Shown here: piece after piece, positions 37,248 to 57,057 of the stretch
How the letters are laid out: each line of letters begins with the position of its first letter
Numbering within the stretch: position 1 is the stretch's first letter
DNA from: Enterobacter cloacae complex sp. R_G8
GTDB lineage: Bacteria; Pseudomonadota; Gammaproteobacteria; Enterobacterales; Enterobacteriaceae
Direction: 5' to 3'
NCBI RefSeq assembly: GCF_024599795.1
Contig: NZ_CP102246.1
Coordinates: 868,001 to 932,000 of the forward strand
DNA length: 64,000 nucleotides
Position numbers and translations under genes: made by a program
Notes under the pieces: model-generated
Database searches by the model: none
What the model saw: only the letters and a program-made list of their open reading frames with translations
Told to the model about the DNA's origin: nothing

Positions 37248-37281
37248 CTGGACTTGAACCAGCGACCAAGCGATTATGAGT
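37248..37281. repeat. attL, 34-bp copy of the ileX core
   Basis: 34 bases identical to 56994-57027, which lies inside the ileX tRNA gene (anticodon loop to T arm). The copy lies next to the integrase gene, the P2 arrangement attL-int. Outside the core the left flank keeps the TGGT complement of ACCA at the same spacing, but the eight intervening acceptor-stem bases differ (ATTCGCAT instead of GGCCCCTG). Confidence 0.85.
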
Positions 37282-37355
37282 TCCTACCAGAACAACCATA
37301 AATCAACGCATTGCGTGATTTATCATTGACATACTTTGCCACTGTTTGCCATCAA

Positions 37356-38390
37356 TTACCCATTATTCGCCATTTCTACCGCCACTTTATCGCCACTCAT
37401 CGCCAGTGGGTTGAGCTTAACGGCATCCTCTAAATGATCAGGTGCAAAGTGCGCATACCGCATAGTCATTTTAATATCCGTATGCCCAAGCACCCGCTGC
37501 AAGACCAGGATATTCCCGCCATTCATCATAAAGTGGCTGGCAAAAGTATGGCGCAGAACATGGGTCAGTTGCCCGGCGGGTAACTCGATACCTGTCCGTT
37601 GCAGCGCAGAGCGGAACGCACCATAGCAATCACTGAACAAACGGCCATTTTTGTTATCAGGCAGAGCGTCATAAAGGGCTTTGCTGACAGGAACGGTGCG
37701 GTTTTTTCGCCCTTTGGTATTGATATAGGTGATTTTGTACTTCGACAGCTGGCTTTTTTTGAGCCCTTCGGCTTCAGACCAGCGTGCGCCCGTGGCGAGA
37801 CAAATCCTGACCACGTTTTCCAGATCCGGGTTGTCATGACGCCGACACTCGGCCAGTAACCGGGCAATTTGCTCCTGCGTCAGCCAGGCCATTTCCATCT
37901 CTTCCGTGCGGAAAGGGCGCATATTTTTCAGCGGATTTTCGCCTTTCCATTCCCCCAGACGATTCAGCTCGTTGAATACCGCCCGGAAGTAGGCCAGCTC
38001 AAGGTTAAGCGTGCGGGGAGAAACTTCTTTTACCCGGGCAGAACGGGCGTATTCGCCTTTTAGCCGCTTTTCCCGGTAGCGGGAAAACATCTGCGCATCG
38101 AAATCCCTCGCGAGCGGTTCGCCCATACACTCAAAAGCATGATGCATCGCCAGCTGGCGTTTAAGACCGTCTTTCAACGTAATGCCGTGAGCGCTATACC
38201 AGGCGTCAATCAGCGCTTTTAAGGTGCGGCGGTCCTCTTTTTCCTCCTGCCATGGGTTTTGAACGGTGTACTGTTCAAAGGCCAGCGCTTCGCCTTTGGT
38301 GGCGAATTTCTTTCTGATGCGCTTACCCTTTGCCCCGTTGGGGTAGATCTCGCAAAGCCAGCCACCGGCAGGATTTTTACGGACCGCCAT
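37356..38390 (-). CDS. int: P2-like phage integrase (tyrosine recombinase)
   Basis: Site-specific recombinase of 344 residues. There is an N-terminal AP2-like arm-binding part (about 1-50), a SAM-like core-binding domain (about 55-155) and a catalytic domain with the Arg of LATGARWSEA, the LTHVLRHTFASH box and the nucleophile Tyr in KMTMRYAHFAP. All catalytic residues are present, so excision should be possible. It is 75 bases from attL and its start overlaps the last base of the cI frame, so the two genes are read together. Confidence 0.95.
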   Translation of the reverse strand: MAVRKNPAGGWLCEIYPNGAKGKRIRKKFATKGEALAFEQYTVQNPWQEEKEDRRTLKALIDAWYSAHGITLKDGLKRQLAMHHAFECMGEPLARDFDAQMFSRYREKRLKGEYARSARVKEVSPRTLNLELAYFRAVFNELNRLGEWKGENPLKNMRPFRTEEMEMAWLTQEQIARLLAECRRHDNPDLENVVRICLATGARWSEAEGLKKSQLSKYKITYINTKGRKNRTVPVSKALYDALPDNKNGRLFSDCYGAFRSALQRTGIELPAGQLTHVLRHTFASHFMMNGGNILVLQRVLGHTDIKMTMRYAHFAPDHLEDAVKLNPLAMSGDKVAVEMANNG

Positions 38391-38965
38391 CAGTTAACCT
38401 CGCTGTAGACACCCACCACACGGCCAATCGTTTTTATCTCGTCGATACCGCATTCAAACGGGATTTTTCCGCCCGCGACGTGGAGTTTTTTACCCGGCAG
38501 GAGCGTCAACTCGCGGATGCTGGTGGTGCCTTCAATCTCAACCAGCCACAGCCCGTCGGTTAACGATGCGTCTTTTTCAACAAAGTGAAGTTTTCCCTCA
38601 GCCCGGACGGCGATGCCGCGGGTAAGTTGTTTGCTGAAGAAATGGGAGTCGATACTCAAAGTAGTATTTTCTTCCAGTCGACCATCACTAAGAGTGAACG
38701 ACGCGACAGATACAGGATCGCCCGGCGCAGGCTGACCTTCAAACTGAGAACCTTGCCCGGTCATTAGCCAGCGCAGGCTGGCGCCCGTATCCAGGGCGCA
38801 CTGCACGGCGAAGTCATAAGAGATAGTGCCGCGTGCGTAGCGGTTCTGCAGCGAGCTGGCGGCAATATTGAAGTGCCGGGCAAGCTGGATTTTTTGCGTA
38901 AAACCATATACCTGACAGATTCTATCGAGCAACTCTTCATTATTCACTTGAGAATCTAAAATCAA
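38390..38965 (-). CDS. cI: 186-type CI repressor
   Basis: Lysogeny repressor of 191 residues. An N-terminal HTH (Phage_CI_repr, VYGFTQKIQLARHFNIAASS) is followed by a 186-type C-terminal oligomerisation domain (KLHVAGGKIPFECGID, ending GRVVGVYSEVN). Coliphage 186 CI ends almost identically. I chose the TTG at 38965, eight bases after AAAGGAA, which gives the 186 CI length. An upstream TTG at 38998 lies inside the operator dyad. The 186 CI is not cleaved by RecA; induction uses the Tum antirepressor, for which a candidate lies at 42321. Confidence 0.9.
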   Translation of the reverse strand: MILDSQVNNEELLDRICQVYGFTQKIQLARHFNIAASSLQNRYARGTISYDFAVQCALDTGASLRWLMTGQGSQFEGQPAPGDPVSVASFTLSDGRLEENTTLSIDSHFFSKQLTRGIAVRAEGKLHFVEKDASLTDGLWLVEIEGTTSIRELTLLPGKKLHVAGGKIPFECGIDEIKTIGRVVGVYSEVN

Positions 38966-38986
38966 AATATATTCCTTTGGGTGTTT

Positions 38987-39010
38987 ACTAATACTCAATT
39001 GGGTATTAGT
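38987..39010. promoter_or_regulatory. Inverted repeat in the cI-cox intergenic region (operator candidate)
   Basis: ACTAATAC and GTATTAGT are perfect inverted arms 8 bases apart, between the divergent cI and cox/apl-like genes. This is the place for the lysis-lysogeny switch, so it is a likely CI or Cox/Apl operator. Confidence 0.6.
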
Positions 39011-39097
39011 ATCATTGCAAATTCGGGCAATCAGCGGCAGACGTTGGCAAACAGAGGCTAAAGATTGCAGTCATTATCAAAATGGGAATCATGCAAC

Positions 39098-39361
39098 ATG
39101 GCTTCTGAAATCGCAATCATCAAAGTGCCAGCCCCTGTGGTGACGCTGCAGCAATTCGCCGCGCTGGAAGGTGTTTCTGAGCGTACTGCCTACCGCTGGA
39201 CGACCGGCGATAACCCCCGGGTCCCCATTGAGCCGCGCACTATCCGCAAGGGCTGCAAAAAAGCAGGTGGCCCCATCCGTATCTATTACGCGCGCTGGAA
39301 AGAGGAGCAGCTACGTAAGGCGTTAGGCCATTCCCGCTTCCAGCTTGTTATCGGTGAATAA
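39098..39361 (+). CDS. Cox/Apl-like DNA-binding regulator
   Basis: An 87-residue basic protein starting MASEIAIIKVPAPVVTLQQF, with an excisionase-like HTH (FAALEGVSERTAYRWTTGDN). Position opposite cI, size and HTH match P2 Cox and 186 Apl, which repress the lysogenic promoter and direct excision. I chose ATG 39098; a start at 39065 would add residues that lie upstream of the domain and in the promoter zone. Confidence 0.75.
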   Translation: MASEIAIIKVPAPVVTLQQFAALEGVSERTAYRWTTGDNPRVPIEPRTIRKGCKKAGGPIRIYYARWKEEQLRKALGHSRFQLVIGE

Positions 39362-39393: not shown

Positions 39394-39732
39394 ATGGCGA
39401 TAGAAGCTGCTCAGGCAAGCGTTCCGCTCAGCGTCGGGGCGCGTCTGTCCGGACTTAACCACGTGGCTGAACTGCGCGCCAGATTCTGGGGCGATAGCGA
39501 GAAAGAGCTGACGCGGTTTTTTGCAGCGCTGCGTGATAAGCGCGATCCCTGTTTTGCAGAGAACACCCGCGCGCTGGCTGCCATCTTCTTCCTGGCGAAA
39601 TTACCCGCTACCCGTCATGCGTGCGAGATCGGTGAACTGACGACTGACGAGAAAAGGGCGCTGATTACCGCCATGAACCATTTTCGTGCAGTCGTGAGCT
39701 TATTTCCCGAACGGCTGACCCTGCCGATGTAA
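39394..39732 (+). CDS. Prophage early-region protein, unknown function
   Basis: A 112-residue protein (MAIEAAQASVPLSVGARLSG to RLTLPM) in the position of 186 cII/fil-type early genes. It is mostly helical with no DNA-binding motif seen. The start follows GAGGGGC. It resembles small conserved proteins of P2-like prophages (possibly the DUF5347 group, not certain). Confidence 0.65.
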   Translation: MAIEAAQASVPLSVGARLSGLNHVAELRARFWGDSEKELTRFFAALRDKRDPCFAENTRALAAIFFLAKLPATRHACEIGELTTDEKRALITAMNHFRAVVSLFPERLTLPM

Positions 39733-39799: not shown

Positions 39800-40027
39800 A
39801 TGCGAAATAGCGAAAACCGCACGTCCCCGATCGAGGGAGAAAAACTGGTACGTCTGCTGGCGCAGGCAAAGACCGAGGAGCGAAGAGCACGTGCGCTCGC
39901 GGTTTCACAGCGCCTTGAGGCGCTGGCCAGCCACATTTACAAAACCGGTATGAGCGGTGAAGACGTGGCTGAACTGCTGTGCCACGAAGCGGCCCGTTAC
40001 GAGCGTGAATCCCAGGAGCTGCACTGA
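39800..40027 (+). CDS. DUF2732-type P2-like phage early protein
   Basis: A 75-residue charged helical protein (EGEKLVRLLAQAKTEERRAR) matching the DUF2732 group found just before the zinc-finger protein in P2-like phages. It has a clear AAGGAG site. Its stop overlaps the next start by one base (TGATG). Function is unknown. Confidence 0.72.
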   Translation: MRNSENRTSPIEGEKLVRLLAQAKTEERRARALAVSQRLEALASHIYKTGMSGEDVAELLCHEAARYERESQELH

Positions 40028-40248
40028 TGGCTGATTTTATCGATCTGGTGCAGGAGCGTGAACTGGCAGAACGCGAGCGCCACATTAACAGCGCGCGCCG
40101 TCGACCTGTGTCGCCATCGCGTTTTCTCTGCGAAGCGTGCGACGCCCCGATCCCCGAGGCACGCCGTATTGCCGTCCCCGGCGTGGCCATGTGCGTTACC
40201 TGCCAGGAAATGACGGAGCTGAAAAACAAACACTATCGGGGAGGGTGA
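40027..40248 (+). CDS. TraR/DksA-type zinc-finger protein
   Basis: A 73-residue protein with a C4 zinc finger, FLCEACDAPIPEARR then MCVTCQEMTEL. Short TraR/DksA homologues are typical of the P2 early operon and may bind the RNA polymerase secondary channel. It ends two bases before the replication gene start. Confidence 0.85.
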   Translation: MADFIDLVQERELAERERHINSARRRPVSPSRFLCEACDAPIPEARRIAVPGVAMCVTCQEMTELKNKHYRGG

Positions 40249-40249
40249 A

Positions 40250-42211
40250 TTGGCTATCTCCTGTGCTTATCCGTGGAATGCGCCACGGACGGCCATTGCC
40301 AGCCCCTATCTCACACACTCTCAACTGCAGCGTCGCGATCGTCTGTTCGCGGCGCTGCTGCAAGCCAGAAAAGCCCTCTCTCTGCAGCCTGAATGCGTCC
40401 GTTCCGAAGTGTGGCGTACGGTTGACGCCATCGAACAGCAGCAGGGCACGCCGCGAGCCAATGCGTTTCTGATCCGCTTCTGTAAAGGGGTCTTACCGCG
40501 CCTGCAGCGGGTTGCTGAGCAATACAGCCGGGTTGGCGTGCACGAGAGCGTCTCCGCGGCGGTTTTTGATGGCCACTTTGACACGCCGCAACTGCAATAC
40601 CTCGCCTCGCGGATGGTGGATATGGTCGCCCGCTTCAACCGCCTTCCGGATATGTCCCGTGCGGATATCGATCTGCTGGGGGCTGACATCGCCCGCTTTA
40701 TTCGCGCCGAGCTGGCAAATATGGACGATGCCGGCATGGGTGAATATCAAACGCTGCATGCCTGGTATCAACGCGCCGGTGTGATTACCCGTCAGTTTAA
40801 TGTGGTCCCTCCCCACTGGGAGCGCGTGTCGAAAACCGTCTTTTGCAAAGAGGACATTGCCCCGGCGGTGATGCGCATGTTTTCAGAGGCCTGGTGGCGC
40901 GGTCGTCTGCGTCGGATGGCGGCCGCCTGGCGGGAGCATCTGCAGATCGCCATCGGTCACGTCAGCAAAAAGAAATCTGCCTATGCGAGCAAACGGTGCA
41001 TCGCCGAGTGGCGCGAGCAGAAGCGCCGTACGCGTGAGTTCCTGAAGGGGCTGGAGCTTGAAGATGAAGAGGGTAATCGTATCAGCCTGATTGAAAAATA
41101 CGATGGCTCGGTGGCTAACCCTGCAATACGCCGCTGCGAACTGATGACCCGTATTCGCGGGTTTGAAAATATCTGCCATGAGCTGGGCTATGCAGGCGAG
41201 TTCTACACCTTAACCGCCCCCGCTAAATATCACGCGACCGTGCAGGCCGGTTACCGTAACGGCAAGTGGAACGGCGCCAGCCCGGCAGACACGCAACACT
41301 ACCTTAACCGGCTCTGGGCGCGCATCCGGGCGAAGCTGCACCGGGAGGGGATGCGTATTTTCGGGATCCGTGTTGCTGAACCTCATCATGACGGTACGCC
41401 CCACTGGCATATGCTGCTGTTCATGCAACCGGAGGATGTCGGGCGCGTTAGACGCATCATGGATGACTATGCCTGCGAAGAGGATGCTGCTGAGTTACAA
41501 CGCGACAGGGCTAAAAAAGCCCGCTTTCACGCCGAAGCCATTGACCCGGAGAAGGGAAGCGCTACCGGCTATATCGCCAAATATATCGCGAAGAATATCG
41601 ATGGCTATGCGCTTGAGGGCGAAACTGATGATGAAAATGGCGAGCTGCTGAAAGAGACCGCTCCCGCCGTTTCCGCCTGGGCGGCCCGCTGGCACATCCG
41701 TCAGTTTCAGTTTATTGGCGGTGCGCCGGTGACGGTCTACCGGGAGTTGCGCCGTCTCACCGAGCGCGAGACGGCGTATGGCCTGAGCGTGGAGCTTGCC
41801 GCCGTGCATGACGCGGCGGACGCCGGAGACTGGGCGGGGTATGTGAACGCCCAGGGCGGGCCGTTTGTCCGTCGTGACGAGCTGCAGGTACGTACGCTCT
41901 ACGAATCGAAAGAAGAATATAACCAGTACGGCGAGGAAACCGTCTGTATCCGCGGGGTCTACGATGCGGCCGTTGGGGCCGGGTCACCGGTGTTAACCCG
42001 CCTCAAACAGTGGAAGATTGTCCCGAAGCGGGCCGTTGACCTTAAGGGCGCCACCGCGCCCTCTTGGAGTTCTGTCAATAACTGTACGCCGGGCGATTTT
42101 TCTCAACTGCACCGCCACCGCGAATTGCCCCCGCCATTCCAGGAAAAGACCCGTTCAATCCTTGAACGTACCGGGCATTTAACGCGTCAGCTGGCCGCGG
42201 TGATGCGCTAA
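40250..42211 (+). CDS. A: gpA-type replication initiation endonuclease
   Basis: Rolling-circle replication protein of the P2 A family (Phage_GPA), 653 residues. The HUH motif is in DGTPHWHMLLFMQ and the catalytic tyrosines in GYIAKYIAKNI, spaced by three residues as in P2 and phiX174 gpA. It starts at TTG 40250 behind GGGGAGGG, right after the zinc-finger gene. An intact replication gene in a headless element means it can still amplify its DNA after induction. Confidence 0.93.
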   Translation: MAISCAYPWNAPRTAIASPYLTHSQLQRRDRLFAALLQARKALSLQPECVRSEVWRTVDAIEQQQGTPRANAFLIRFCKGVLPRLQRVAEQYSRVGVHESVSAAVFDGHFDTPQLQYLASRMVDMVARFNRLPDMSRADIDLLGADIARFIRAELANMDDAGMGEYQTLHAWYQRAGVITRQFNVVPPHWERVSKTVFCKEDIAPAVMRMFSEAWWRGRLRRMAAAWREHLQIAIGHVSKKKSAYASKRCIAEWREQKRRTREFLKGLELEDEEGNRISLIEKYDGSVANPAIRRCELMTRIRGFENICHELGYAGEFYTLTAPAKYHATVQAGYRNGKWNGASPADTQHYLNRLWARIRAKLHREGMRIFGIRVAEPHHDGTPHWHMLLFMQPEDVGRVRRIMDDYACEEDAAELQRDRAKKARFHAEAIDPEKGSATGYIAKYIAKNIDGYALEGETDDENGELLKETAPAVSAWAARWHIRQFQFIGGAPVTVYRELRRLTERETAYGLSVELAAVHDAADAGDWAGYVNAQGGPFVRRDELQVRTLYESKEEYNQYGEETVCIRGVYDAAVGAGSPVLTRLKQWKIVPKRAVDLKGATAPSWSSVNNCTPGDFSQLHRHRELPPPFQEKTRSILERTGHLTRQLAAVMR

Positions 42212-42282: not shown

Positions 42283-42302
42283 TACTGTATGTTTATACAG
42301 TA
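42283..42302 (+). promoter_or_regulatory. LexA (SOS) box upstream of the DinI/Tum-like gene
   Basis: TACTGTATGTTTATACAGTA is a perfect palindrome at the outer positions with CTGT-N8-ACAG, the LexA consensus. It lies 18 bases before the GTG start of the next gene. In phage 186 the LexA-controlled tum gene triggers induction. Confidence 0.93.
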
Positions 42303-42320: not shown

Positions 42321-42761
42321 GTGGACAGAGAGTTGAATGAGCAAGTCATGATTGAACGAGTCGAGATGATTGCGCGACTGACGACAGAAGGAACATGTCA
42401 GGAGAGAGATCGTGAAATTGCCCTGAATCTTATTGCTGAGATAGCGAGAGGGAATTTAATCAAAAACAACGCGTTTACCGTTGTTTTCTCGGCATCGCCT
42501 GTTCCGGAACGAATCAAAAAAGAGAGCCATGTGCGGGTAAATATCACCCTCGATAAAGATCAGCACATTGGTCCGTCGGTGGTGGAAGCCTTCCAGTGCG
42601 AACTCACCCGCAGGATAAGGCCGCTGTTCCCGTCAACGCGGGTGACGGTGAAAGAAGGCTCCATGACGGGCGTCGAGCTGCTGGGCATCAACGGCGAGGC
42701 CGAGCGCGAAGCGTTAGACAACATTCTTCGGGAAGTCTGGGAAGACGAGAGCTGGCGCTAG
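42321..42761 (+). CDS. DinI-like / Tum-like SOS-controlled protein
   Basis: A 146-residue protein. The C-terminal part (VRVNITLDKDQHIGPSVVEA, RIRPLFPSTRVTVKEGSMTG) matches the DinI-like family to which the 186 antirepressor Tum belongs. I chose GTG 42321 because GGAGG is placed just before it and the LexA box lies upstream. Longer starts would place the box inside the gene. It is expected to relieve CI repression on DNA damage. It stands where the P2 head operon should begin. Confidence 0.82.
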   Translation: MDRELNEQVMIERVEMIARLTTEGTCQERDREIALNLIAEIARGNLIKNNAFTVVFSASPVPERIKKESHVRVNITLDKDQHIGPSVVEAFQCELTRRIRPLFPSTRVTVKEGSMTGVELLGINGEAEREALDNILREVWEDESWR

Positions 42762-42926
42762 CGTCTGCCCTTTCCCCGGCAACAACCTTCATTCAGATTT
42801 GAGCCGCGTTCGGTCGTACGCGGACAGCCTGTTGTGCCCGCGATTGTCCATCCGCCTGCGGTAGCGGAAAGGGCGCTGGCTCTGGAAACTCTACAGTACC
42901 TGGAAATCCGGATGTTGGAGTGTCTG
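42762..42926. other. Junction where P2 head genes Q-P-O-N-M-L would lie
   Basis: 165 bases between the DinI-like gene and tail gene X. No portal, capsid, terminase or head-completion coding sequence is recognisable, and no insertion-sequence or repeat scar is obvious. It probably contains the promoter for the late lysis/tail genes. Confidence 0.75.
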
Positions 42927-43130
42927 ATGAAGATCTATGCAATGCAGGGAGATACGCTTGATGCCATCTGTGCCCGTTATTACGGGCGCACGGCAGGCGT
43001 AGTCGAACCCGTTCTGAAAGCCAATCCTGGCCTTGCTGAGTGGGGCGTTGTTTTACCCCATGGCACGGCAGTAGACATGCCAGAGGTTGATAGCGCACCC
43101 AGAAAAGAAACCGTGAACCTATGGGACTGA
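42927..43130 (+). CDS. X: Tail protein X (LysM-like)
   Basis: A 67-residue homologue of P2 gpX (QGDTLDAICARYYGRTAGVV, LPHGTAVDMPEV). It has a LysM-like fold and is needed for tail assembly. Its end overlaps the holin gene start by ten bases, the P2 X-holin arrangement. Confidence 0.95.
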   Translation: MKIYAMQGDTLDAICARYYGRTAGVVEPVLKANPGLAEWGVVLPHGTAVDMPEVDSAPRKETVNLWD

Positions 43131-43342
43131 GTCTGGAGAAAGTCACCACGTTTATTGCCTACTGGCTGGCCGTGGCGCTGGCCTGGTTCGGGGCGATGTC
43201 TCCTGAAAAAGTGGCGCTGTACGTGGGAAGCCTCTGCGCCATTTTTACCGCGCTGACGAATTACTGGTTTAAGCGAAAAACCTGGCGCTATCTCAACTCT
43301 CTGGGCCTCGATAAGAAGAGTATTCGTGAACTCAATCATTAA
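43121..43342 (+). CDS. Phage holin
   Basis: A 73-residue membrane protein with two hydrophobic segments (TFIAYWLAVALAWFGAM and VALYVGSLCAIFTAL) and a basic tail (WFKRKTWRYL). This is an HP1-type holin, unlike P2 gpY. It forms inner-membrane lesions at lysis. It overlaps both X and the endolysin gene. Confidence 0.85.
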   Translation: MGLSLEKVTTFIAYWLAVALAWFGAMSPEKVALYVGSLCAIFTALTNYWFKRKTWRYLNSLGLDKKSIRELNH

Positions 43343-43835
43343 GCGTTGCAGCGTCGCCAGCGTCCTTGCCCTGGCGGTGCTCATGCCTGACTTTCGATTA
43401 CTGCACACCTCGCCTGAAGGGCTGGCGTTAATTGCCGATCTCGAAGGCTGCCGTCTTTCACCCTACCGCTGTAGCGCGGGCGTATGGACGTCAGGCATTG
43501 GCCATACGGCAGGCGTTGTACCGACGCAGGCGATCACCGAGCGTGACGCGGCGGCGAACCTGATCGCCGACGTTCTGAATGTTGAGAAACGGCTTGCCGC
43601 ATGCGCGCCGGTGGAGATGCCACCCCGTGTCTATGACGCGCTGGTCAGTTTTGCCTTTAACGTGGGAACCGGTGCCGCCTGCCGTTCGACGCTGGTGGCG
43701 TTTATTCATCACAAACAGTGGCCGCAGGCCTGCGATCAGCTGACCCGCTGGGTGTATGTCAACGGGAAGAAGAACGCCGGGCTGGAAAACCGTCGGGCCC
43801 GTGAAAAGGCCTGGTGTATGCAGGGGGCGGGATGA
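43326..43835 (+). CDS. SAR-type endolysin (GH24 lysozyme)
   Basis: A 169-residue T4-lysozyme-fold muramidase. The N-terminal hydrophobic stretch (CSVASVLALAVLMPDF) looks like a signal-anchor-release segment. The catalytic Glu-Cys-Thr set is in DLEGCRLSPYRCSAG followed by VWTSGIGHT, as in the P21 R endolysin, where cysteine chemistry controls activation. It starts at GTG 43326 within the holin gene. With the pinholin-sized holin before it, lysis probably follows the P21 mode. Confidence 0.9.
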   Translation: MNSIIKRCSVASVLALAVLMPDFRLLHTSPEGLALIADLEGCRLSPYRCSAGVWTSGIGHTAGVVPTQAITERDAAANLIADVLNVEKRLAACAPVEMPPRVYDALVSFAFNVGTGAACRSTLVAFIHHKQWPQACDQLTRWVYVNGKKNAGLENRRAREKAWCMQGAG

Positions 43836-44245
43836 GAACTCTCCTGCTGATGCTGGCTGTGCTGATGGCCATTACCCTGTGGTTTCGTCATGACAATCAG
43901 AACCTGTCCCGCGCCTTTGCCAAAGCCAACCAGATCGCCACTGAACAAAAAAACACGATTAACGCGCTGAACCATCAGCTGGCCGTATCGCAACGAATGG
44001 CCAGAGAAAATGAAAACGCGCAGGTCAGGCTCCGCGATGCGCTTGCCGTTACCGCTGAGGAGATGGCAAGGCGCGAAGCGGCTATCGGGAGATTGATGAA
44101 TGAAAATGAAGAACTACGCCGCTGGTATCACGCTCAGCTGCCTGATGTTGTCCGCAGGTTGCACACCCGCGCCGCCTGTGCCTCCGCCGCACATTGTTTA
44201 CAACGCTTGCCCAAAGGTGAGCACCTGCCCGATGCCGGCAAGTGA
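43832..44245 (+). CDS. lysB: LysB, i-spanin (Rz-like)
   Basis: A 137-residue inner-membrane spanin: N-terminal membrane anchor (RTLLLMLAVLMAITLWF) and a long periplasmic coiled coil. It is in the P2 lysB position, overlaps the endolysin stop by four bases (ATGA), and contains lysC nested in another frame. Confidence 0.87.
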   Translation: MRTLLLMLAVLMAITLWFRHDNQNLSRAFAKANQIATEQKNTINALNHQLAVSQRMARENENAQVRLRDALAVTAEEMARREAAIGRLMNENEELRRWYHAQLPDVVRRLHTRAACASAAHCLQRLPKGEHLPDAGK

Positions 44246-44390
44246 GCCTGTCACAAACGGCGATCTGAGTGCCGATATTCGCAGGCTTGAGCACGCCCTT
44301 ATCGCCTGCGCCTTGCAGGTTGAAACCATTAAAGACTGTCAGGATAAACTCGATGCACAAACTCAAAAGCCTGCGTCAGGCATTAATTGA
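44100..44390 (+). CDS. lysC: LysC, o-spanin lipoprotein (Rz1-like)
   Basis: A 96-residue lipoprotein in a shifted frame inside and beyond lysB. The lipobox is LSAGC, followed by a proline-rich start TPAPPVPPP, the hallmark of Rz1-type o-spanins. ATG 44106 is an alternative start. With LysB it fuses inner and outer membranes in the last lysis step. Confidence 0.87.
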   Translation: MKMKNYAAGITLSCLMLSAGCTPAPPVPPPHIVYNACPKVSTCPMPASEPVTNGDLSADIRRLEHALIACALQVETIKDCQDKLDAQTQKPASGIN

Positions 44391-44820
44391 CGCTGTACCA
44401 CAACTGCGCGCAAACCCGGAGCGCTTACAGATGTCCGTCGGAAGCGGTAACATCGATGCGCGTCTGGCGGCCTCGCTCTCGTTCGAAAAACAATATGAAC
44501 TGAAGGCGAACGTCAGCGGTTTTTCCGGTGACAGCGAGGGGATTTTCGTCCCGGTGCTGGCCTGGCTTCGGGAAAACCAGCCGGATATTTTTACCCTCGA
44601 TGAGGGACGAAAAAAGGGGTATCTCTTTCAGGTTGTCTTAAATGACGATGAAACCTCAGATATCAGCTTCAGCCTGCAGTTAACCGAGCGGATTCTGGTG
44701 TCCGAGAATGAAGGGACCTTGCTTGCCACCTATTCTCCGGAGCCGCCGCTGCCAGAACCCGTCACGCGTCCGATGGAGTTATACGTCAACGGTGAACTGG
44801 TCAGCCGGTGGGAGGCCTGA
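44353..44820 (+). CDS. R: Tail completion protein R
   Basis: A 155-residue homologue of P2 gpR: MHKLKSLRQALIDAVPQLRA, LAASLSFEKQYELKANV and the nearly identical C-terminal RPMELYVNGELVSRWEA. It completes the tail. The partner gene S, which follows R in P2, is absent here; 126 non-coding bases follow instead. Confidence 0.94.
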   Translation: MHKLKSLRQALIDAVPQLRANPERLQMSVGSGNIDARLAASLSFEKQYELKANVSGFSGDSEGIFVPVLAWLRENQPDIFTLDEGRKKGYLFQVVLNDDETSDISFSLQLTERILVSENEGTLLATYSPEPPLPEPVTRPMELYVNGELVSRWEA

Positions 44821-44946: not shown

Positions 44947-45588
44947 ATGAATACGCTAACTTCCATGCACGGCATCGCTCGCGCGATCCGCAATCTTATT
45001 CGTCTCGGTGTTGTGACCGATGTCGACCTCAAACGAGGGCTCTGCCGCGTCCAGTCCGGGGGAATGAAAACCACCTGGCTGAACTGGCTGACCTGCCGCG
45101 CAGGCCGCTCGCGCGTCTGGTGGGCACCGTCCGAGGGTGAACAGGTCTTGCTGCTGGCTATCGGCGGTGAGCTGGATACCGCCTTCGTGTTGCCAGGCAT
45201 TTTCTCTGACGACCATCCGGCGCCGTCTGAGTCGCCTGACGCGCTCCACGTCTCGTTTCCTGATGGGGCGGTTATCGAATACGAGCCCGGCAACGGTGCG
45301 CTGACGGCGACCGGCATCAAAACGGCAACCATCACCGCATCGGAATCGCTGACCGCGACCGTTCCGGTGGTACAGGTGAAAGCAGAGACCCGTATCACGC
45401 TGGATACGCCTGAAGTGGTGTGTACCAACAAGTTAATTACCGCCTCTCTGGAGGTGCAGAAGGGCGGCGTGATGGCCGGAAATATTGAACATTCCGGCGG
45501 TAAATTCACCTCGAATGGGGTGCAGGTGGACAACCATGCCCACGGCAGTGTGCAAAGCGGCGGAAGCTGGACTAAGGGGACGCAATGA
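44947..45588 (+). CDS. V: Baseplate spike V
   Basis: A 213-residue membrane-piercing spike (P2 gpV). An N-terminal OB-fold (VVTDVDLKRGLCRVQSG) is followed by a beta-prism with short repeats and a C-terminal tip VQVDNHAHGSVQSGG containing the His-x-His iron-binding motif. First gene of the baseplate operon. Confidence 0.94.
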   Translation: MNTLTSMHGIARAIRNLIRLGVVTDVDLKRGLCRVQSGGMKTTWLNWLTCRAGRSRVWWAPSEGEQVLLLAIGGELDTAFVLPGIFSDDHPAPSESPDALHVSFPDGAVIEYEPGNGALTATGIKTATITASESLTATVPVVQVKAETRITLDTPEVVCTNKLITASLEVQKGGVMAGNIEHSGGKFTSNGVQVDNHAHGSVQSGGSWTKGTQ

Positions 45589-49457: not shown

Positions 49458-49874
49458 ATGAATGATAAATACTATTACAGCGCAAAAACTAATGCTTTTT
49501 ATCCCTCTTTGCTTATTCCTGATTATATTAAGGCAGGTACATTACCAGATGATATTAAGGAAATCTCGACAGAATGGTATACCTATATTCTTAATTGTCA
49601 GGCAAGGGGGGAGGTGATTAGACCAAACGAATTCGGTCAGCCTGTGCCGTCAGAACCACCACCACCTACGCAACATGAGATGAGGGGGATTGTCGAGGAA
49701 AAAAAAGCACAAATAATGCGGGTGGTTAGTGAAAAAATAGCTGTTTTAAACGATGCGATAGAGCTCGGAATCAGCACCAAAGAAGAGGAAGCAGCACTCC
49801 CTGCATGGCGGAATTATCGTGTGCTGGTGAGCAGAGTTCGAACTGATAGCCCTGTATGGCCAGAAGAACCGTGA
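49458..49874 (+). CDS. G: Tail fibre assembly protein G
   Basis: A 138-residue chaperone of the Caudo_TAP family, specific to the adjacent fibre tip. The start resembles DKYYYSAKTNAFYPSLLIPD and the C-terminal half AIELGISTKEEEAALPAWRN then YRVLVSRV is the conserved part. It starts two bases after H. It is AT-rich, like the fibre tip, consistent with co-transfer. Confidence 0.92.
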   Translation: MNDKYYYSAKTNAFYPSLLIPDYIKAGTLPDDIKEISTEWYTYILNCQARGEVIRPNEFGQPVPSEPPPPTQHEMRGIVEEKKAQIMRVVSEKIAVLNDAIELGISTKEEEAALPAWRNYRVLVSRVRTDSPVWPEEP

Positions 49875-50262: not shown

Positions 50263-51456
50263 ATGGGCGACTATCACCACGGCGTGGAAGTCATCGAAAT
50301 CAACGATGGCACACGCACCATTTCCACCGTCTCGACGGCAATCATCGGTATGGTCTGTACGGCCAGCGATGCTGACGAACAGACATTCCCTCTTAACGAG
50401 CCTGTGCTCATTACCAATGTACAATCCGCGATTGCGAAAGCCGGGAAAACAGGCACGCTGTCCGCTTCCCTTCAGGCGATTGCCGATCAGTGTAAACCGG
50501 TTGTCGTTGTTGTTCGCGTGGCCGAAGGTGTCGATAACCCGGACGACCCGGAAGCCGCACAGAAAGAAACCATTTCTAACATCATCGGTACCACCGATGA
50601 AAACGGCAAATACACCGGTCTGAAGGCACTTCTCACCGCGAAAACGGTGACCGGCGTTAAACCACGCATTCTTGGTGTACCGGGTCTGGATTCGCAGGAA
50701 GTGGCGACCGCGCTGGCAGCGACGTGTCAGAGCCTGCGTGCGTTTGGCTATGTCAGCGCATGGGGCTGTAAAACCATTCCTGAGGCGATCAACTATCGCA
50801 AAAACTTCAGCCAGCGTGAGCTGATGGTTATTCACCCGGATTTCCTGGCGTGGGATACCACGACGAACGCCACCAAAACGGCCTGGGCGACCGCACGCGC
50901 ACTTGGTCTGCGCGCCAAGATTGACCAGACTACCGGCTGGCATAAAACCCTGTCCAACGTCGGTGTTAACGGCGTCACCGGGGTGAGCGCTTCTGTCTCC
51001 TGGGACCTGCAGGAACAGGCCACCGATGCCAACCTGCTTAACCAGGCGGGCGTGACTACGCTGATTCGCAATGACAGTTTCAAATTCTGGGGCAACCGTA
51101 CCTGCTCTGACGATCCGTTATTCCTGTTTGAAAACTACACCCGTACCGCGCAGGTACTGGCCGACACCATGGCGGAAGCGCACGCATGGGCGATGGATAA
51201 ACCCATTACCCCAACGCTTATCCGCGACATCATTTCCGGTATCAATGCCAAATTCCGCGAGCTGAAAACCAACGGCTACATCGTTGACGGCTCCTGCTGG
51301 TATGACCCGGAATCGAATGACGTGTCGACCCTCAAAGCGGGGAAACTGTATATCGATTACGACTACACCCCTGTTCCGCCGCTGGAGAATCTGACCCTGC
51401 GCCAGCGCATCACCGATACCTATCTGGCAGACCTGTCAGATTCGGTTAACAGCTAA
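50263..51456 (+). CDS. FI: Tail sheath FI
   Basis: Contractile sheath protein of 397 residues (P2 gpFI, 396): YHHGVEVIEINDGTRTISTV and the conserved C-terminal sheath core ending LTLRQRITDTYLADLSDSVN. An intact sheath gene means the tail can contract. Confidence 0.96.
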   Translation: MGDYHHGVEVIEINDGTRTISTVSTAIIGMVCTASDADEQTFPLNEPVLITNVQSAIAKAGKTGTLSASLQAIADQCKPVVVVVRVAEGVDNPDDPEAAQKETISNIIGTTDENGKYTGLKALLTAKTVTGVKPRILGVPGLDSQEVATALAATCQSLRAFGYVSAWGCKTIPEAINYRKNFSQRELMVIHPDFLAWDTTTNATKTAWATARALGLRAKIDQTTGWHKTLSNVGVNGVTGVSASVSWDLQEQATDANLLNQAGVTTLIRNDSFKFWGNRTCSDDPLFLFENYTRTAQVLADTMAEAHAWAMDKPITPTLIRDIISGINAKFRELKTNGYIVDGSCWYDPESNDVSTLKAGKLYIDYDYTPVPPLENLTLRQRITDTYLADLSDSVNS

Positions 51457-51467: not shown

Positions 51468-51986
51468 ATGGCGTTACCACGCAAACTTAAATATCTGAAT
51501 ATGTTCAACGATGGCCTGAGCTATATGGGCGTTGTTGAGTCTGTCACCTTACCGAAGCTCACCCGCAAGCTGGAGAAGTATCGCGGCGGCGGTATGCCGG
51601 GTTCGGTCTCTGTCGACCTCGGCCTGGACGATGATGCCATGGCGCTGGAGTGGACCATTGGTGGTCTGCCGGACGTTGCACTGTGGGCGCAGTATGCCTC
51701 GCCAGGCGCGGACAGCGTGCCGCTGCGTTTTACCGGTTCCTTCCAGCGTGACGATACCGGCGAAATCTCTGCGGTGGAGATCGTGATGCGTGGCCGTCAC
51801 AAAGAGTTTGACGGCGGCGAGAACAAGCAGGGCGAAAGCGGCACGACCAAGATGTCCACCGAGTGCGCTTACTACCAGCTCACTATCGATGGCAAAGAGG
51901 TTATCGAGATTGACATCATCAACATGGTGCTGAAAGTCGACGGCGTCGATCGTCTGGCGGAACACCGTAAGGCCATCGGCCTGTAA
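51468..51986 (+). CDS. FII: Tail tube FII
   Basis: A 172-residue inner tube protein (P2 gpFII). MALPRKLKYLNMFNDGLSYM and VSVDLGLDDDAMALEWTIGG are conserved. It follows the sheath gene by 11 bases with a good AAGGAG site. Confidence 0.96.
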   Translation: MALPRKLKYLNMFNDGLSYMGVVESVTLPKLTRKLEKYRGGGMPGSVSVDLGLDDDAMALEWTIGGLPDVALWAQYASPGADSVPLRFTGSFQRDDTGEISAVEIVMRGRHKEFDGGENKQGESGTTKMSTECAYYQLTIDGKEVIEIDIINMVLKVDGVDRLAEHRKAIGL

Positions 51987-52041: not shown

Positions 52042-52350
52042 ATGGAAAATATCAACGAGACTGTTATCAACGAAAGCGAAAACCCAAACACCGTCACGCT
52101 TGATAGCCCCGTTCTGCGCGGCGAGCATAAAATCGAAAAAGTGACCGTCGCAAAACCCAATGCGGGCACCCTGCGTGGCGTATCGCTGGCGTCGCTGGCG
52201 CAATCCGACGTGGATGCCCTGATTAAGGTGCTGCCGCGAATGACCTCTCCGGCGTTGACCGAACATGAGATTGCACGTCTGGATGCCTCCGACCTGCTCT
52301 CTTTTGCCGGTAAGGTGGTCGGTTTTTTGTCACCGACTTCGGCTCGCTGA
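52042..52350 (+). CDS. E: Tail protein E
   Basis: A 102-residue tail-assembly chaperone (P2 gpE). It contains the slippery sequence T TTT TTG at 52323-52329 near its end. Without slippage it ends GFLSPTSAR. Confidence 0.93.
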   Translation: MENINETVINESENPNTVTLDSPVLRGEHKIEKVTVAKPNAGTLRGVSLASLAQSDVDALIKVLPRMTSPALTEHEIARLDASDLLSFAGKVVGFLSPTSAR

Positions 52351-52502
52351 AATTTCCTGAAAACCTGTCGGTCGACGATCTGATGGCGGATATCGCGGTG
52401 ATTTTTCACTGGCCGCCGTCAGAGCTGTACCCCCTGAGCGTGACCGAACTCCTCATATGGCGCGAAAAGGCGCTGCAGCGAAGCGGAAACCACCATGAGT
52501 AA
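52042..52502 (+). CDS. E': E+E' product by -1 ribosomal frameshift
   Basis: A -1 shift at T TTT TTG (52323-52329) continues the frame as FVTDFGSLKFPENLSVDDLM to the stop at 52500-52502, which overlaps the start of T. The extended protein has about 153 residues. P2 E/E' and lambda G/GT use the same device to make two tail-assembly chaperones in fixed ratio. The P2 heptamer is the same. Confidence 0.88.
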
Positions 52503-54942
52503 TAATGTCAGACTTCAGGCGCTGCTGGATGCAGTCGCCAGGGCAAGCCGACCGCTCAAAGCTATCCACAATGCCAGTCTCTCTCTTGAGGGAGAGATCG
52601 GTGAATCGCAGGCGGCGCTGCGCGCGCTCGATGAGCAGGCGGCCCGCGTCGATGGATTCAGAAAAACAAGCAGTCAGCTCACCATGACGGGGCAGGCGCT
52701 TGCCATGGCGAAACAACAGACGGCGGCACTGGCGCGTGAACTGAAAAACACGCAAAACCCCACCCGGGAGCAGAACGATGCGCTGACGGCAGCCCGCCAG
52801 TCTGCCGCCGCCCTGAAGCTTGAGTACAACACTCTGCGCCAGTCCGTCCAGCGCCAGCGCGGCGAACTGGCGCAGGCGGGGATTAACACCCGTACCCTGG
52901 CAGCAGATGAACGTCGTTTAAGAAAGAGCATCGGCGAAAAAACGCAGCAGCTCAACGGACAACGAGAGGCACTCGCCCGGGTTAATCAGCAGCAGGAGCG
53001 GCTCAATGCCGTTCAGCGTCGCTACGAATCCGGCAAACGTGTTGCCACGCGCGTGCATCAGATCGCTGGCGCAGGCGTGAGCATGGCAAAGACGGGCGTT
53101 GACCAGATGTCCCGGTTTATGGCGCCGGGTATCAGTGCTGAAAAGCAGATGTCTGCTATTCAGGCCAGTCTTGGTCTGGAGAAGGGGGATGTCAGGCTTG
53201 AGGCTATTCGCCAGCAGGCGCGGGACGTCAGTGCCGGTACGGGAACCTCAACGGAGGCGGTCACCCGGGCGCAGACCGAGCTGGTTCGTTCAGGATATGA
53301 CGCCGAGGGTGTGCTTGCAGCCACGCTTCCTGCGGTCAATCTCAGCCTTGCGGGAAATGTCGATGCCGCAAACGCCGCTGACATCATCAGCAATGCACAG
53401 ACCGCGTTCAACCTGGCCAATACCGATGCTGGGCGTGTCGCAGACGTGCTGACCCGCGGATTTACCTCCTCTCACACCAGCCTTACCGAGCTGGGTGCTG
53501 CCGTGGCCTCTGTCGCGCCAATTGCCAGCGGCGCTGGCGTGAGCCTTGAAGATACGACCGCGCTGCTTGGCATTCTGATGGAAAAGGGGATGAAAGGGAG
53601 CACGGCTGGCGCCGGGGTCGGCGCTGTGCTGAGCCATCTGCAGATGCAGAACGGTCAGGGTTCTGCCGCGCTGGGTGAACTGAACGTACAGACCCATGAT
53701 GTACAAGGCAATCTGCTGCCTGCGGAGCAGATCCTCAAAGCCCTCTCCGCATCCTTTGAAAAGAGCCAACTCGGTACCGCGCAGCAGATGGCGTACCTGA
53801 AGACCATTTTCGGTCAGGAAAACGCGCAAGGCGCTGCGGTACTGGTCTCCGCCGCGGGTAATGGAACGCTGTCTGAGAAACGTCAGCAGCTCCAGGGGGC
53901 AAAGGGCAGTACCGCGCGGGTAGCTGCCGTTCAGTCCGATAACCTTGCCGGTGATATAGGCAAGCTTCAGGCGGTGTGGAACGGCCTGAAGATGGATGTA
54001 TTTGATAAGGCGGATGGCGCCCTGCGTACCCTGACCACCACCGCGACCGGGTGGATCAGTACGCTCTCTCTGTGGGTGAATGCCAACCCCGCACTGACGC
54101 AAGGCCTGGTCGGGGTTATCGTCGGCGCGCAGGCGTTTGCCGGCATAGTGGGCGGGCTGGGCACGGTCGTTGCGCCGATGGTGACCGGCCTGAACCTGGT
54201 CATTACCGCCGCCGGGATGTTAGGCACCGCCTTCAGCGTGGTCGGCGGTAGCATCATGGCGATCCTGGGTGCACTCAGCTGGCCCATCATTGCCATTGGT
54301 GCGGCGATTGCGGCGGGTGCATTACTGATTTTTAAATACTGGGAACCTGTCAGCGCCTTCTTTACCGGGGTGATGGAAGGGCTTTCTGTGGCCTTTGCTC
54401 CACTGGGCGAGCTGTTTTCTCCACTTCTGCAGGCGTTTGGTTTCATCTCAGAGAAGCTGGGCGGGATCTGGCAGTGGTTTACTGACCTGATTACGCCAAT
54501 CAAAGCGACTCAGGAAACGCTCGACAGTTGCAAAAACGCGGGGGTGATGTTCGGTCAGATGCTCGGGGAGGCGTTGATGGCACCGCTTAATCTGTTCAAC
54601 ACTCTGAGCAGCAAGGCGACCTGGCTACTGGATAAACTCGGTCTTATCAAAACAGAGTCGGATAACATCGAGCCCGCTGCGGCTAACGCAGGGGCGGCTT
54701 CCTCTGCGCCGGGCAGTGCGTATATTCCGCCGACATCGACCTATGGTGGCTATCTGAAGTATCAGCCAGCGCTGGCCACTGGCGGACGCTCTTATGTCGA
54801 TCAGAGCAGGAGCGAATATCACTTCACGCTGCAGGGTGACATGACCTCCGGCGCGGACCTCAGCCGCCAAATTCAGGATGCCCTGGACAGCAGAGAGAAT
54901 CAGAGAGCGGCGAACCAGCGATCGCGCTTTATGTATGAGTAA
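52495..54942 (+). CDS. T: Tape-measure protein T
   Basis: An 815-residue tail-length ruler, about the length of P2 gpT, so the tail should have P2 length. It has long N-terminal coiled coils (about 20-170), the PhageMin_Tail core (about 190-430, SAEKQMSAIQASLGLEKGDV) and hydrophobic segments at about 540-620. The start overlaps the E' end (ATGAGTAA). Confidence 0.95.
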   Translation: MSNNVRLQALLDAVARASRPLKAIHNASLSLEGEIGESQAALRALDEQAARVDGFRKTSSQLTMTGQALAMAKQQTAALARELKNTQNPTREQNDALTAARQSAAALKLEYNTLRQSVQRQRGELAQAGINTRTLAADERRLRKSIGEKTQQLNGQREALARVNQQQERLNAVQRRYESGKRVATRVHQIAGAGVSMAKTGVDQMSRFMAPGISAEKQMSAIQASLGLEKGDVRLEAIRQQARDVSAGTGTSTEAVTRAQTELVRSGYDAEGVLAATLPAVNLSLAGNVDAANAADIISNAQTAFNLANTDAGRVADVLTRGFTSSHTSLTELGAAVASVAPIASGAGVSLEDTTALLGILMEKGMKGSTAGAGVGAVLSHLQMQNGQGSAALGELNVQTHDVQGNLLPAEQILKALSASFEKSQLGTAQQMAYLKTIFGQENAQGAAVLVSAAGNGTLSEKRQQLQGAKGSTARVAAVQSDNLAGDIGKLQAVWNGLKMDVFDKADGALRTLTTTATGWISTLSLWVNANPALTQGLVGVIVGAQAFAGIVGGLGTVVAPMVTGLNLVITAAGMLGTAFSVVGGSIMAILGALSWPIIAIGAAIAAGALLIFKYWEPVSAFFTGVMEGLSVAFAPLGELFSPLLQAFGFISEKLGGIWQWFTDLITPIKATQETLDSCKNAGVMFGQMLGEALMAPLNLFNTLSSKATWLLDKLGLIKTESDNIEPAAANAGAASSAPGSAYIPPTSTYGGYLKYQPALATGGRSYVDQSRSEYHFTLQGDMTSGADLSRQIQDALDSRENQRAANQRSRFMYE

Positions 54943-54953: not shown

Positions 54954-55418
54954 ATGTTAATGGTGCTGGGGCTGTTTGTCTTTGAGCGACGAACCTTGCC
55001 GTATCAGTCAATGCAGTTTTCAAAGGATTACCGCTGGGCCTCTAACGATCGCATCGGGAAGCCCAAAGCCTGGCAGTATCTGGGTGAGGGCGATACATCC
55101 CATACGCTCTCCGGAACGCTTTATCCTGAAATTACCGGAGGGCGATTGTCCCTCAAAGCCATCGAACTGATGGCGAATGAGGGGCGGGCCTGGCCGCTGA
55201 TTGACGGGACGGGCATTATCCATGGCATGTTTGTGATTGATAAGGTCACGCACACCCATACGGATTTTTACAGCGATGGTACGGCGCGTAAAATTGATTT
55301 TACGCTTTCGCTGAAGCGCGTTGATGAATCGCTGATGGCGATGTTTGGCGACCTGAGAACACAGGCTGAAGAGCTGGTGACCAGCGCGCGTACCGAAATC
55401 GGAGGGCTGCTGGGATGA
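54954..55418 (+). CDS. U: Tail protein U
   Basis: A 154-residue P2 gpU homologue (MLMVLGLFVFERRTLPYQSM, DRIGKPKAWQYLGEG). It works in tail assembly. The end overlaps D by four bases. Confidence 0.94.
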   Translation: MLMVLGLFVFERRTLPYQSMQFSKDYRWASNDRIGKPKAWQYLGEGDTSHTLSGTLYPEITGGRLSLKAIELMANEGRAWPLIDGTGIIHGMFVIDKVTHTHTDFYSDGTARKIDFTLSLKRVDESLMAMFGDLRTQAEELVTSARTEIGGLLG

Positions 55419-56560
55419 TCACGGAAATGAATGTCCGGGCGGGGGGGAAAATCGCCCCCGATTTTATGCTCAAGCTTAATGGCCGTGATATTACGCAAAA
55501 TTTTAGCCATCGCCTTATCCGCTTGACCATGACTGACAACCGAGGCCTGGAAGCCGATCAGGTGGACATTGAGCTGGATGATTCCGACGGTCTGTTAGAC
55601 CTGCCGGCTCGCGGCGCGTTTATTACTCTATGGCTGGGCTGGCAGGGCACCCCTCTGGAGCCGAAGGGGAATTTCACGGTCGATGATATTGAATTTCGGG
55701 GGGCGCCGGACCGGTTAACCATTCGTGGGCGCAGCGCCGATTTTCGTGGCAAGCTCAACGTTCGTCGCGAGCAGTCATGGCATGACACCACCCTCGGCGA
55801 AATTGTTGATACCATCGCGCAGCGCAACCAGCTTAGCGCCAGCGTGGCGGCGGAATTTTCATCCATAGCCATTGCGCATATCGACCAGACTCAGGAGTCC
55901 GATGCCGCGTTTCTCTCCCGCCTGGCTGAACGCAATGGCGCGTTTGTGGCCGTTAAGGAAGGGAAGGTGCTTTTCATGAAAGCGGGCGGCGCCGTGACGG
56001 CCAGCGGCAAACCGGTTCCGTTGAAGGTGATTGAACGCGCCGATGGCGATAAACACAGCTTTTCCATCGCCGATCGCGAAGCGTATTCCGGCGTGACGGC
56101 CAAATGGCTGCAAACGAGCGATCCTAAACAACAACACCCCAAGGTCAGCATCAATCGTCTGCCTCAGGCGGCAGCGACAGGTGCGTTACCTCATCCGGAT
56201 GCCGCAGCCGTATCCGGCAGCACGGAGCAAACGCCGCAGGAGACATTGGTTGGTGCCGCCGATAACGTCTTTGAGTTGACCACTATTTTTGCCTCCGAAG
56301 CGCAGGCACTCAGAGCGGCTGAAGCCAAATGGCGTGCTTTACAGCGCGGGGTGGTGAAATTTTCTATCCAGCTGGCGCTGGGGAAAGCTGACCTTTTTCC
56401 CGAAACCCCCCTTCAGGTAAAAGGCTTTAAGCGGGCGATTGACGAGCAAGCGTGGATCGTCAGCCGGGTCGTACACACCCTTGACGGAAGAGGCTTTACG
56501 ACGGAGGTGAATCTTGAACCTGACATTGCCGACGAAAAATTTTCCATCGAAAGCGAGTAG
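55415..56560 (+). CDS. D: Tail hub protein D
   Basis: A 381-residue baseplate hub (P2 gpD, gp27-like). GADQVDIELDDSD-like sequence with LPARGAFITLWLGWQG near residue 70 is family-typical. It sits above the spike V. It ends the tail operon. Confidence 0.94.
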   Translation: MITEMNVRAGGKIAPDFMLKLNGRDITQNFSHRLIRLTMTDNRGLEADQVDIELDDSDGLLDLPARGAFITLWLGWQGTPLEPKGNFTVDDIEFRGAPDRLTIRGRSADFRGKLNVRREQSWHDTTLGEIVDTIAQRNQLSASVAAEFSSIAIAHIDQTQESDAAFLSRLAERNGAFVAVKEGKVLFMKAGGAVTASGKPVPLKVIERADGDKHSFSIADREAYSGVTAKWLQTSDPKQQHPKVSINRLPQAAATGALPHPDAAAVSGSTEQTPQETLVGAADNVFELTTIFASEAQALRAAEAKWRALQRGVVKFSIQLALGKADLFPETPLQVKGFKRAIDEQAWIVSRVVHTLDGRGFTTEVNLEPDIADEKFSIESE

Positions 56561-56626
56561 TATGCTTTTAATTTTACGCCTTTGGGGTATTATTAATTCA
56601 CAAAAAGTGAATTAAACGGAGGCGGT

Positions 56627-56827
56627 ATGTTTCATTGTCCTAAATGTAAGCACTCGGCACATGCGCGAACCAGTCGCTATTTGAGTGAAAATACCAAAGA
56701 GCGTTATCACCAGTGTACCAACGTTGATTGCAGCTGTACGTTTGTCACCATGGAGTCTGTTGAGCGCCTGATTGCAGCCCCTGGCATGCCAGAGCGTGCC
56801 CGGGCGCCCTCGGTGAACCGCAGTTAG
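56627..56827 (+). CDS. ogr: Ogr/Delta late-gene activator
   Basis: A 66-residue zinc-finger activator (P2 Ogr, satellite P4 Delta). The metal ligands are in FHCPKCKHSAHART and YHQCTNVDCSCTF. It binds upstream of late promoters and contacts the RNA polymerase alpha subunit. Its survival means the tail and lysis genes can still be switched on. It lies last before attR, as in P2. Confidence 0.94.
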   Translation: MFHCPKCKHSAHARTSRYLSENTKERYHQCTNVDCSCTFVTMESVERLIAAPGMPERARAPSVNRS

Positions 56828-56844
56828 CGATCGCCGCATCAGTC

Positions 56845-56872
56845 AAAAAAACCGCCTCGTGCGGTTTTTTTT
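56845..56872 (+). terminator. Intrinsic terminator at the prophage right end
   Basis: AAAAAACCGC pairs with GCGGTTTTTT around CTCGT, followed by more T. It shields ileX and host genes from late prophage transcription. Confidence 0.92.
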
Positions 56873-56981
56873 ATCCCTGTAACAACTCAGCGATACCGCC
56901 ATTTCATCGCCACTGCAAATTGAGCCAACAAAAAAGCCACTCATGTGAGTGGCTTAATTATATGATACTAAAGCTAAAATT

Positions 56982-57057
56982 TGGTGGCCCCTGCTGGACT
57001 TGAACCAGCGACCAAGCGATTATGAGTCGCCTGCTCTAACCACTGAGCTAAGGGGCC
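56982..57057 (-). tRNA. ileX: tRNA-Ile2 (anticodon CAT, lysidine-modified)
   Basis: A 76-base cloverleaf read on the minus strand, beginning GGCCCCTTAGCTCAGTGG with anticodon loop CTCATAA and encoded CCA. It equals E. coli ileX, and its place between yqjH and mug agrees. C34 of such tRNAs is changed to lysidine by TilS to read AUA. The acceptor stem GGCCCCT/AGGGGCC is intact. The prophage abuts its 3' side. Confidence 0.97.
56994..57027. repeat. attR, 34-bp core within ileX
   Basis: Identical to 37248-37281. It covers the anticodon loop to the T arm of the tRNA. The acceptor-stem bases outside the core on the prophage side (56982-56993) are correct for a working tRNA. Confidence 0.88.

Follow-up and report, generated by a model that had tools for sequence, protein, structure and literature searches.

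A 186-type prophage of Enterobacter without head genes, probably an SOS-inducible P2-type R tailocin that keeps its replication initiator and origin

The window, a stretch of 64,000 nucleotides (nt) of the genome of Enterobacter cloacae complex sp. R_G8, carries at 37248-57027 a prophage of the coliphage 186 type in which the genes of a contractile tail are present and those of a head are missing, and the question raised by this locus is what such an element makes. R-type pyocins and carotovoricin are headless contractile killing tails, and an earlier note, made from the letters alone, had read the element as a particle of this kind; it would have been contradicted by head genes elsewhere in the genome or by a deletion unique to this copy. 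Our results agree with that interpretation. The locus is very probably a domesticated 186-type prophage which would act as an SOS-inducible P2-type R tailocin, producing headless contractile tails. This reading is based on the gene content, the absence of the head genes and S, the LexA box, the fusion of a late promoter to the tail genes, and conservation over a whole clade; the particles themselves, lysis, killing, and a target range set by H and G are predicted from it.

The element is inserted in a tRNA (CAT), beside mug and rpoD, and its gene order is that of 186 (Table 1). Integrase (int) and CI are read leftward, and all genes from the Cox/Apl-like gene to ogr are read rightward: Cox/Apl-like, DUF5347, DUF2732, DksA/TraR-like, gpA, tum/dinI, X, holin, endolysin, Rz, Rz1, and R, followed by V, W, J, I, H, G, FI, FII, E/E', T, U, D, and ogr. 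The tail, lysis, ogr, int, and gpA genes named in the earlier note were all found as open frames, E' being assigned by position and size, and the proposed ends of the element proved to be attachment repeats of 34 identical bases, the right copy within the tRNA, which was the sole match in an Rfam scan. A complete contractile tail set (sheath, tube, tape measure, baseplate, fibre, and terminator) and lysis genes for release are therefore present, as in an R-type tailocin.

By contrast with 186, which has cos, homologues of Q, P, O, N, M, L, and S and makes virions, none of these seven genes was found in the window by tblastn with queries from a complete E. coli relative (E 1e-4), as the earlier note had stated. 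In the one-contig genome of 4.95 Mb, a search for the P2-type portal (PF04860) and capsid (PF05125) families gave no match, and J and the sheath gene FI each matched once. No source of P2-type heads is thus apparent in the strain, the search having covered the P2-type families and not other head types. As regards cos, the three best matches in the window carry 3 mismatches each, are at chance level and all lie outside the element, although a divergent cos would escape such a search; there was no exact match in any headless locus, a weak control since only P2, 186, and locus L039 matched at all. Of the capsid, portal, terminase, and cos by which an Eganvirus or P2-like phage is recognized, the first three were not found and cos had no close match, and the lack of head and packaging genes is that of an R-type tailocin.

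Control by DNA damage can be read from the region before tum. In 186, tum is under the control of LexA, and its product Tum inhibits CI, the repressor of pR and pB; the late promoters are activated by B. The exact 20-nt LexA box stands before tum in 14 of the 15 headless elements of the genus, with the core CTGT-N8-ACAG in the remaining one (L087), and 186 carries the identical box. The SOS inducibility proposed in the earlier note, which is also the kind of stress control expected of an R-type tailocin, is thereby borne out by LexA box and Tum as far as sequence goes.

The late promoter shows how precise the loss of the head genes was. The 186 genome runs from tum through cos, Q, P, a divergent late promoter with its B/Ogr site, O, N, M, and L to X. 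In the window, the stretch 42828-42890 matches the late promoter of the O operon: the alignment with the complete E. coli relative covers 63 bp without gaps, and that with 186 covers 22 bp, B/Ogr site included; the alignment score was matched by 2 (E. coli relative), 9 (186), and 14 (P2) of 1000 dinucleotide shuffles. In 13 of 14 elements the motif agrees at 11-12 of 12 positions and is placed 96-97 bp ahead of X; L087 has 9 of 12, and genome G007 also carries the motif. Within 130 bp of X, other headless lineages show 10 of 12 positions (L016) or 8 of 12 (L023, L027, L028), and the rest 6-7 of 12 or no site. In the Enterobacter clade, then, a late promoter from the middle of the deleted head block has been retained and now fronts X. 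Its survival in mid-block calls for two or more deletions, or an equal rearrangement, and fits selection better than decay. Other promoter signals were less informative: a strict scan of the window for TTGT-N12-ACAA found nothing, the annotated 186 and P2 sites showing a looser motif; sigma-70 promoters in 42100-57000 were at chance (9 found, 9.3 expected), and the terminator scan of the same interval (25 against 15.5 expected) was not used.

Taking these elements into account, and with the chain of control borrowed from 186, DNA damage would release LexA-controlled tum, and Tum would inactivate CI. Expression of gpA and the other early genes would follow, as would that of the late activator Ogr/B, which would act at the late promoter before X (X, holin, lysin, spanins, and R) and presumably at promoters of the V and FI operons, for which there are weak candidate sites. 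Tails would assemble and be capped by R, the cell would lyse, and the tails released would find their targets according to H and G. As a second and less certain step, gpA may nick the retained origin and replicate the island in place, giving more template for late expression.

To see how widely the headless form is distributed, J was searched in 61 genomes of the genus; the examination covered 42 of the 51 matches listed (the own genome and 41 fetched), leaving out 9. Among those 42, the headless form was found in at least 15 of the 61 genomes, the own included (G000, G007, G008, G009, G010, G011, G014, G018, G019, G024, G032, G033, G035, G037, and G049). The distance from J to mug is 10.4-11.7 kb in nine of the 15, 17.3-20.9 kb in G008, G010, and G014, and 45-47 kb in G019 and G049, where other DNA intervenes; in G035 the two genes are on separate contigs. 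Agreement on the left flank is partial. The window, G037, G033, G018, and G014 share an outer-membrane-protein gene ahead of the element, and G024 has fragments of it; this gene did not appear in the 10 kb taken from G032, G010, G009, G049, G011, G019, and G008, nor at the left end of the G007 stretch. The headless form is not a unique deletion, then, but is conserved in relatives, mostly at the same locus and with low dN/dS. Elsewhere, none of 5426 E. coli genomes had a place covering 80% of the element, the best match examined being a complete phage, and none of the 182 matching phage records had one.

Quick trees were built for V-W-R (74 rows) and FI-FII-E-U-D (62 rows, 12 with missing genes left out) after 13 duplicate loci were dropped; L016, L028, and L036 are on long branches. 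The 14 headless rows of Enterobacter and Lelliottia form one clade in both trees (support by the Shimodaira-Hasegawa-like approximate likelihood ratio test, SH-aLRT, 99 and 96), adjoining complete phages of Enterobacter, Citrobacter, Lelliottia, and E. coli. Other headless loci are placed elsewhere: Yokenella (L015), L016 with Erwinia L036, Dickeya (L027, L029), and Pantoea/Ewingella (L033, L035, L038, L028, L023). The headless label needs 5 and 4 changes in the two trees, and the starred branches force 4 and 4; if heads were lost and never regained, this means at least four separate losses. Regarding two of these loci and genomes, L015, an independent case of head loss, keeps an L-like gene, the LexA box, gpA, and the origin, has no match to the window holin or lysin, and may be a decayed phage. 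The interval from the headless element to mug in G049 is occupied by a P2-type phage that has head genes (C1:4133419-4187574), so that heads and headless tails occur in one genome.

Selection on the phage genes was gauged by the ratio of nonsynonymous to synonymous substitution rates (dN/dS), which is low: its pairwise median is 0.03-0.31 over 23 genes in 13 elements (2-13 per gene; G007 and G014 excluded), the highest single-pair value being 0.77, in X. In the ten elements without int, the medians are 0.025-0.205 over 14 genes. The most divergent genes are those of the fibre (H/G), and in L095 and L098 the end of J together with I, H, and G is of another type while the flanking tail genes are those of the clade; both are what is expected of a receptor module. 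The open frames of T fall into three classes of 828-832, 776, and 737 codons in 14 elements (window, L076-L085, L087, L095, and L098), from which different tail lengths are predicted within one tailocin clade; the window T being as long as that of P2, its tail should have about the P2 length. G007, like L095 and L098, has a different version of the end of J, I, H, and G, pointing in all three to exchange of the fibre module.

A key aspect of this lineage is the retention of replication functions. The earlier note had found it unusual that int and gpA are both kept; for gpA this holds over the whole lineage, together with the origin, whereas int has proved dispensable. It is intact in three of the 15 elements (window, G011, and G035), frameshifted in G024, in pieces in G008, G009, G010, G014, and G049, and undetected in six, and full-length cox is confined to the three elements with intact int, being incomplete in the other 12. 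By contrast, the gpA frame is open over its full length in 14 of 15 and split between two contig ends in G014, and its HUH-type and paired-tyrosine motifs occur in all 13 headless gpA compared. The window gpA has 662 codons against 736-742 in most sister elements, an internal deletion having removed about 76 codons of the C-terminal tail. This deletion spares the catalytic core with its motifs, as well as the origin, and the activity of the shortened gpA is putative. The nick site is present in all 15 headless elements of the genus, with one base varying in three, and in seven of ten other headless loci; an exact match was not found in L023, L035, and L036. It is also present in complete phages of the genus, and 30 of the 61 genomes have a match.

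In the ten int-less elements, gpA has a median dN/dS of 0.144 with a maximum of 0.236 (45 of 45 pairs). There are no synonymous differences around the nick site in these elements, against a mean of 0.19, and this stretch is tied for the lowest of 737 windows with one near the start of gpA; when 186 and the int-bearing elements are added, it is the lowest of 720. The synonymous pattern is one of constraint since the loss of the head, and it does not date constraint to after the loss of int. We also considered that gpA might be kept by repeated renewal from complete phages, and rejected it by the gpA tree, where 13 of the 14 headless rows of the genus form a clade of their own apart from complete phages (support 99), with L087 as the exception. 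In this tree the int-less rows group apart from the window (support 93), and in the tail trees the window stands beside the int-less L001; a single loss of int and several losses are both possible.

Tailocins are usually stated to have no replication genes; as the statement is contradicted for xenorhabdicin Xnp1 (PMC8855722), this lack is treated here as usual and not as defining, and in the window gpA and origin are kept. It is quite possible, if somewhat short of probable, that the lineage is a self-amplifying tailocin island in which gpA and its nick site are kept for in-place SOS replication that multiplies the tail and lysis genes. The most likely role of gpA is to increase, by such replication, the copy number of the genes that follow the origin. 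P2 late transcription depends on replication, and in-place replication by gpA may also be needed for full Ogr-driven late transcription. The alternatives are polarity or some other role of gpA, or that the window copy still excises. The same self-amplification would hold for P2-type tailocins of other Enterobacterales.

At the level of sequence, both refutations foreseen in the earlier note failed, the search for head genes elsewhere in the genome having covered the portal and capsid families. Several points weigh against a tailocin. The evidence comes wholly from sequence; the window copy, with intact int, cox, and both attachment repeats, may still move; D is shortened in G037, W is shortened in G035, and W and J are each split over two frames in G007; and tailocins are described in print, in an excerpt of a review (PMC12090994), as devoid of nucleic acid replication genes. 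Those lesions in three relatives would suit a decaying, non-functional remnant heading for loss, as would the absence of head genes and S and the int that is broken or undetected in 12 of 15 elements, with cox incomplete in the same 12. Such decay is nevertheless hard to reconcile with the low dN/dS of the tail, lysis, and regulatory genes, with a gene set identical over the clade and with a promoter preserved from midway in the lost block, and we consider it very improbable.

The intact int, cox, attachment repeats, gpA, and origin of the window copy also recall a satellite or defective phage whose DNA is taken up into heads made by a P2-type helper, in the way that P4 uses P2, as does the P2-type phage with head genes found beside the headless element of G049. 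This is about as improbable as decay: a close match to cos was seen neither in the element, where a divergent cos would be missed, nor, as an exact match and with the weak control mentioned, in any headless locus, the own genome offered neither a portal nor a capsid of the P2 type, all 24 headless loci are without S, intact int is missing in 12 of 15 elements, and a full tail set is unnecessary for a satellite. Less probable still is a contractile device that serves some other purpose, for instance delivery of an effector or interference with other phages. Nothing specific speaks for it, the genes identified between those of the tail show no cargo gene, and the lysis cassette and fibre variation suit a released bacteriocin. 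The tailocin remains the preferred reading.

Among known systems, 186 itself (Eganvirus, Peduoviridae) shares the gene order, CI/Apl/Tum control, LexA box, B/Ogr activator, gpA, and origin. Xenorhabdicin Xnp1 of Xenorhabdus nematophila is described in excerpts of one paper as a P2-type tail remnant with CI and without capsid, portal, or terminase, whose GpA and GpW are up-regulated after mitomycin C; the introduction gives the region as lacking replication genes, at odds with the paper's own GpA result (PMC8855722). It belongs to another genus, and the likeness is drawn from its description. In an excerpt of another paper, xenorhabdicin killing spectra are linked to tail fibres (PMC13280938). 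The closest tested P2-type tailocin that we encountered is dickeyocin P2D1 of Dickeya dadantii 3937, a headless P2-type tail with particles of about 166 nm that kills Dickeya; the paper reports no head genes O, M, N, L and no tape measure, while T is present in the window (PMC10719855). R-type pyocin and carotovoricin are headless contractile killing tails (PMC10719855), and the element of the window would work as they do. The related Dickeya loci L027 and L029 lack S, keep gpA and the nick site, and stand apart from the Enterobacter clade in the V-W-R tree. A Marinomonas R-type bacteriocin has no replication genes according to the excerpt cited (PMC10870725). In the literature searched, with subscription journals mostly outside its scope, no title described an Enterobacter P2-type tailocin, and no paper held 'tailocin' and 'replication gene A' together.

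If the reading is right, Enterobacter, an ESKAPE genus, gains a widespread SOS-inducible tailocin, and the replication-free picture of tailocins is corrected: the integrase is lost before origin and initiator in elements that are probably no longer able to move, and the role of gpA in tailocin yield becomes directly testable.

A side result concerns S. Among distinct loci with R in view, it is present in all 46 that carry two or more head genes and in none of the 24 headless ones, where L015 (one head-type gene) was taken as headless, L030 was set aside as having no R in view, and R is present in all 24 by construction of the set; L039, with one head gene and scrambled, retains S. The presence of S goes together with the head. 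Because the headless loci lack S yet keep R, S would act at the head-tail joint rather than in tail building, and its loss along with the head in several lineages is a genetic clue to its place in P2-type virions.

Table 1. Features of the prophage and its attachment sites, in window coordinates (aa, amino acids).
Feature	Position	Strand	Remark
attL repeat	37248..37281		34 nt identical to 56994-57027; belongs to tRNA 3' end
Integrase	37356..38390	-	344 aa, open frame in window copy
CI repressor	38390..38998	-	PF07022 and PF16452
Cox/Apl-like excisionase-repressor	39065..39361	+	
DUF5347 protein	39394..39732	+	phrog_602
DUF2732 protein	39800..40027	+	
DksA/TraR-like zinc finger	40027..40248	+	
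gpA rolling-circle initiator	40250..42211	+	HHDGTPHWH and YxxxY motifs; C-terminal tail shortened
gpA nick site (replication origin)	42066..42085	+	matches annotated P2 and 186 origin
LexA box TACTGT-N8-ACAGTA	42283..42302	+	upstream of tum
Tum/DinI-like antirepressor	42321..42761	+	frame open from 42255; start set by 186 record
Late promoter region	42828..42890	+	homologous to O-operon promoter (186 pV); Ogr/B site at 42831, 96 bp before X
Tail protein X	42927..43130	+	frame open from 42834
Holin	43121..43342	+	
Endolysin	43326..43835	+	
Rz and Rz1 spanins	43814..44390	+	43814-44245 and 44100-44390
R, tail terminator	44269..44820	+	PF06891; downstream S absent
V, spike	44947..45588	+	weak candidate Ogr/B site at 44882
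W, baseplate wedge	45585..45935	+	
J, baseplate	45941..46849	+	
I, tail/baseplate protein	46842..47372	+	
H, tail fibre	47384..49456	+	132-nt tandem repeats at 47903-48395
G, fibre assembly chaperone	49458..49874	+	
FI, sheath	50263..51456	+	weak candidate Ogr/B site about 91 bp upstream
FII, tube	51468..51986	+	PHROG label 'head closure', likewise given to P2 FII
E and E'	52042..52502	+	E 52042-52350, E' 52383-52502; E' by position and size
T, tape measure	52495..54942	+	815 aa, the annotated P2 T length
U	54954..55418	+	
D, baseplate hub	55415..56560	+	
ogr/B late activator	56627..56827	+	
attR repeat	56994..57027		inside tRNA (CAT) 56982-57057 (-)

Some minor observations were made around these loci. 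In the window, DUF1090, outer-membrane usher, and beta-barrel genes (32583-36010) adjoin the attachment site, and all or part of them form the left flank in several relatives. In G037, mug beside the element matches as two overlapping pieces (C1:1776040-1776554). Two loci labelled Sporobacter (L004) and Chryseobacterium (L017) hold enterobacterial P2-type phages, and their contigs are probably contaminant or mislabelled.

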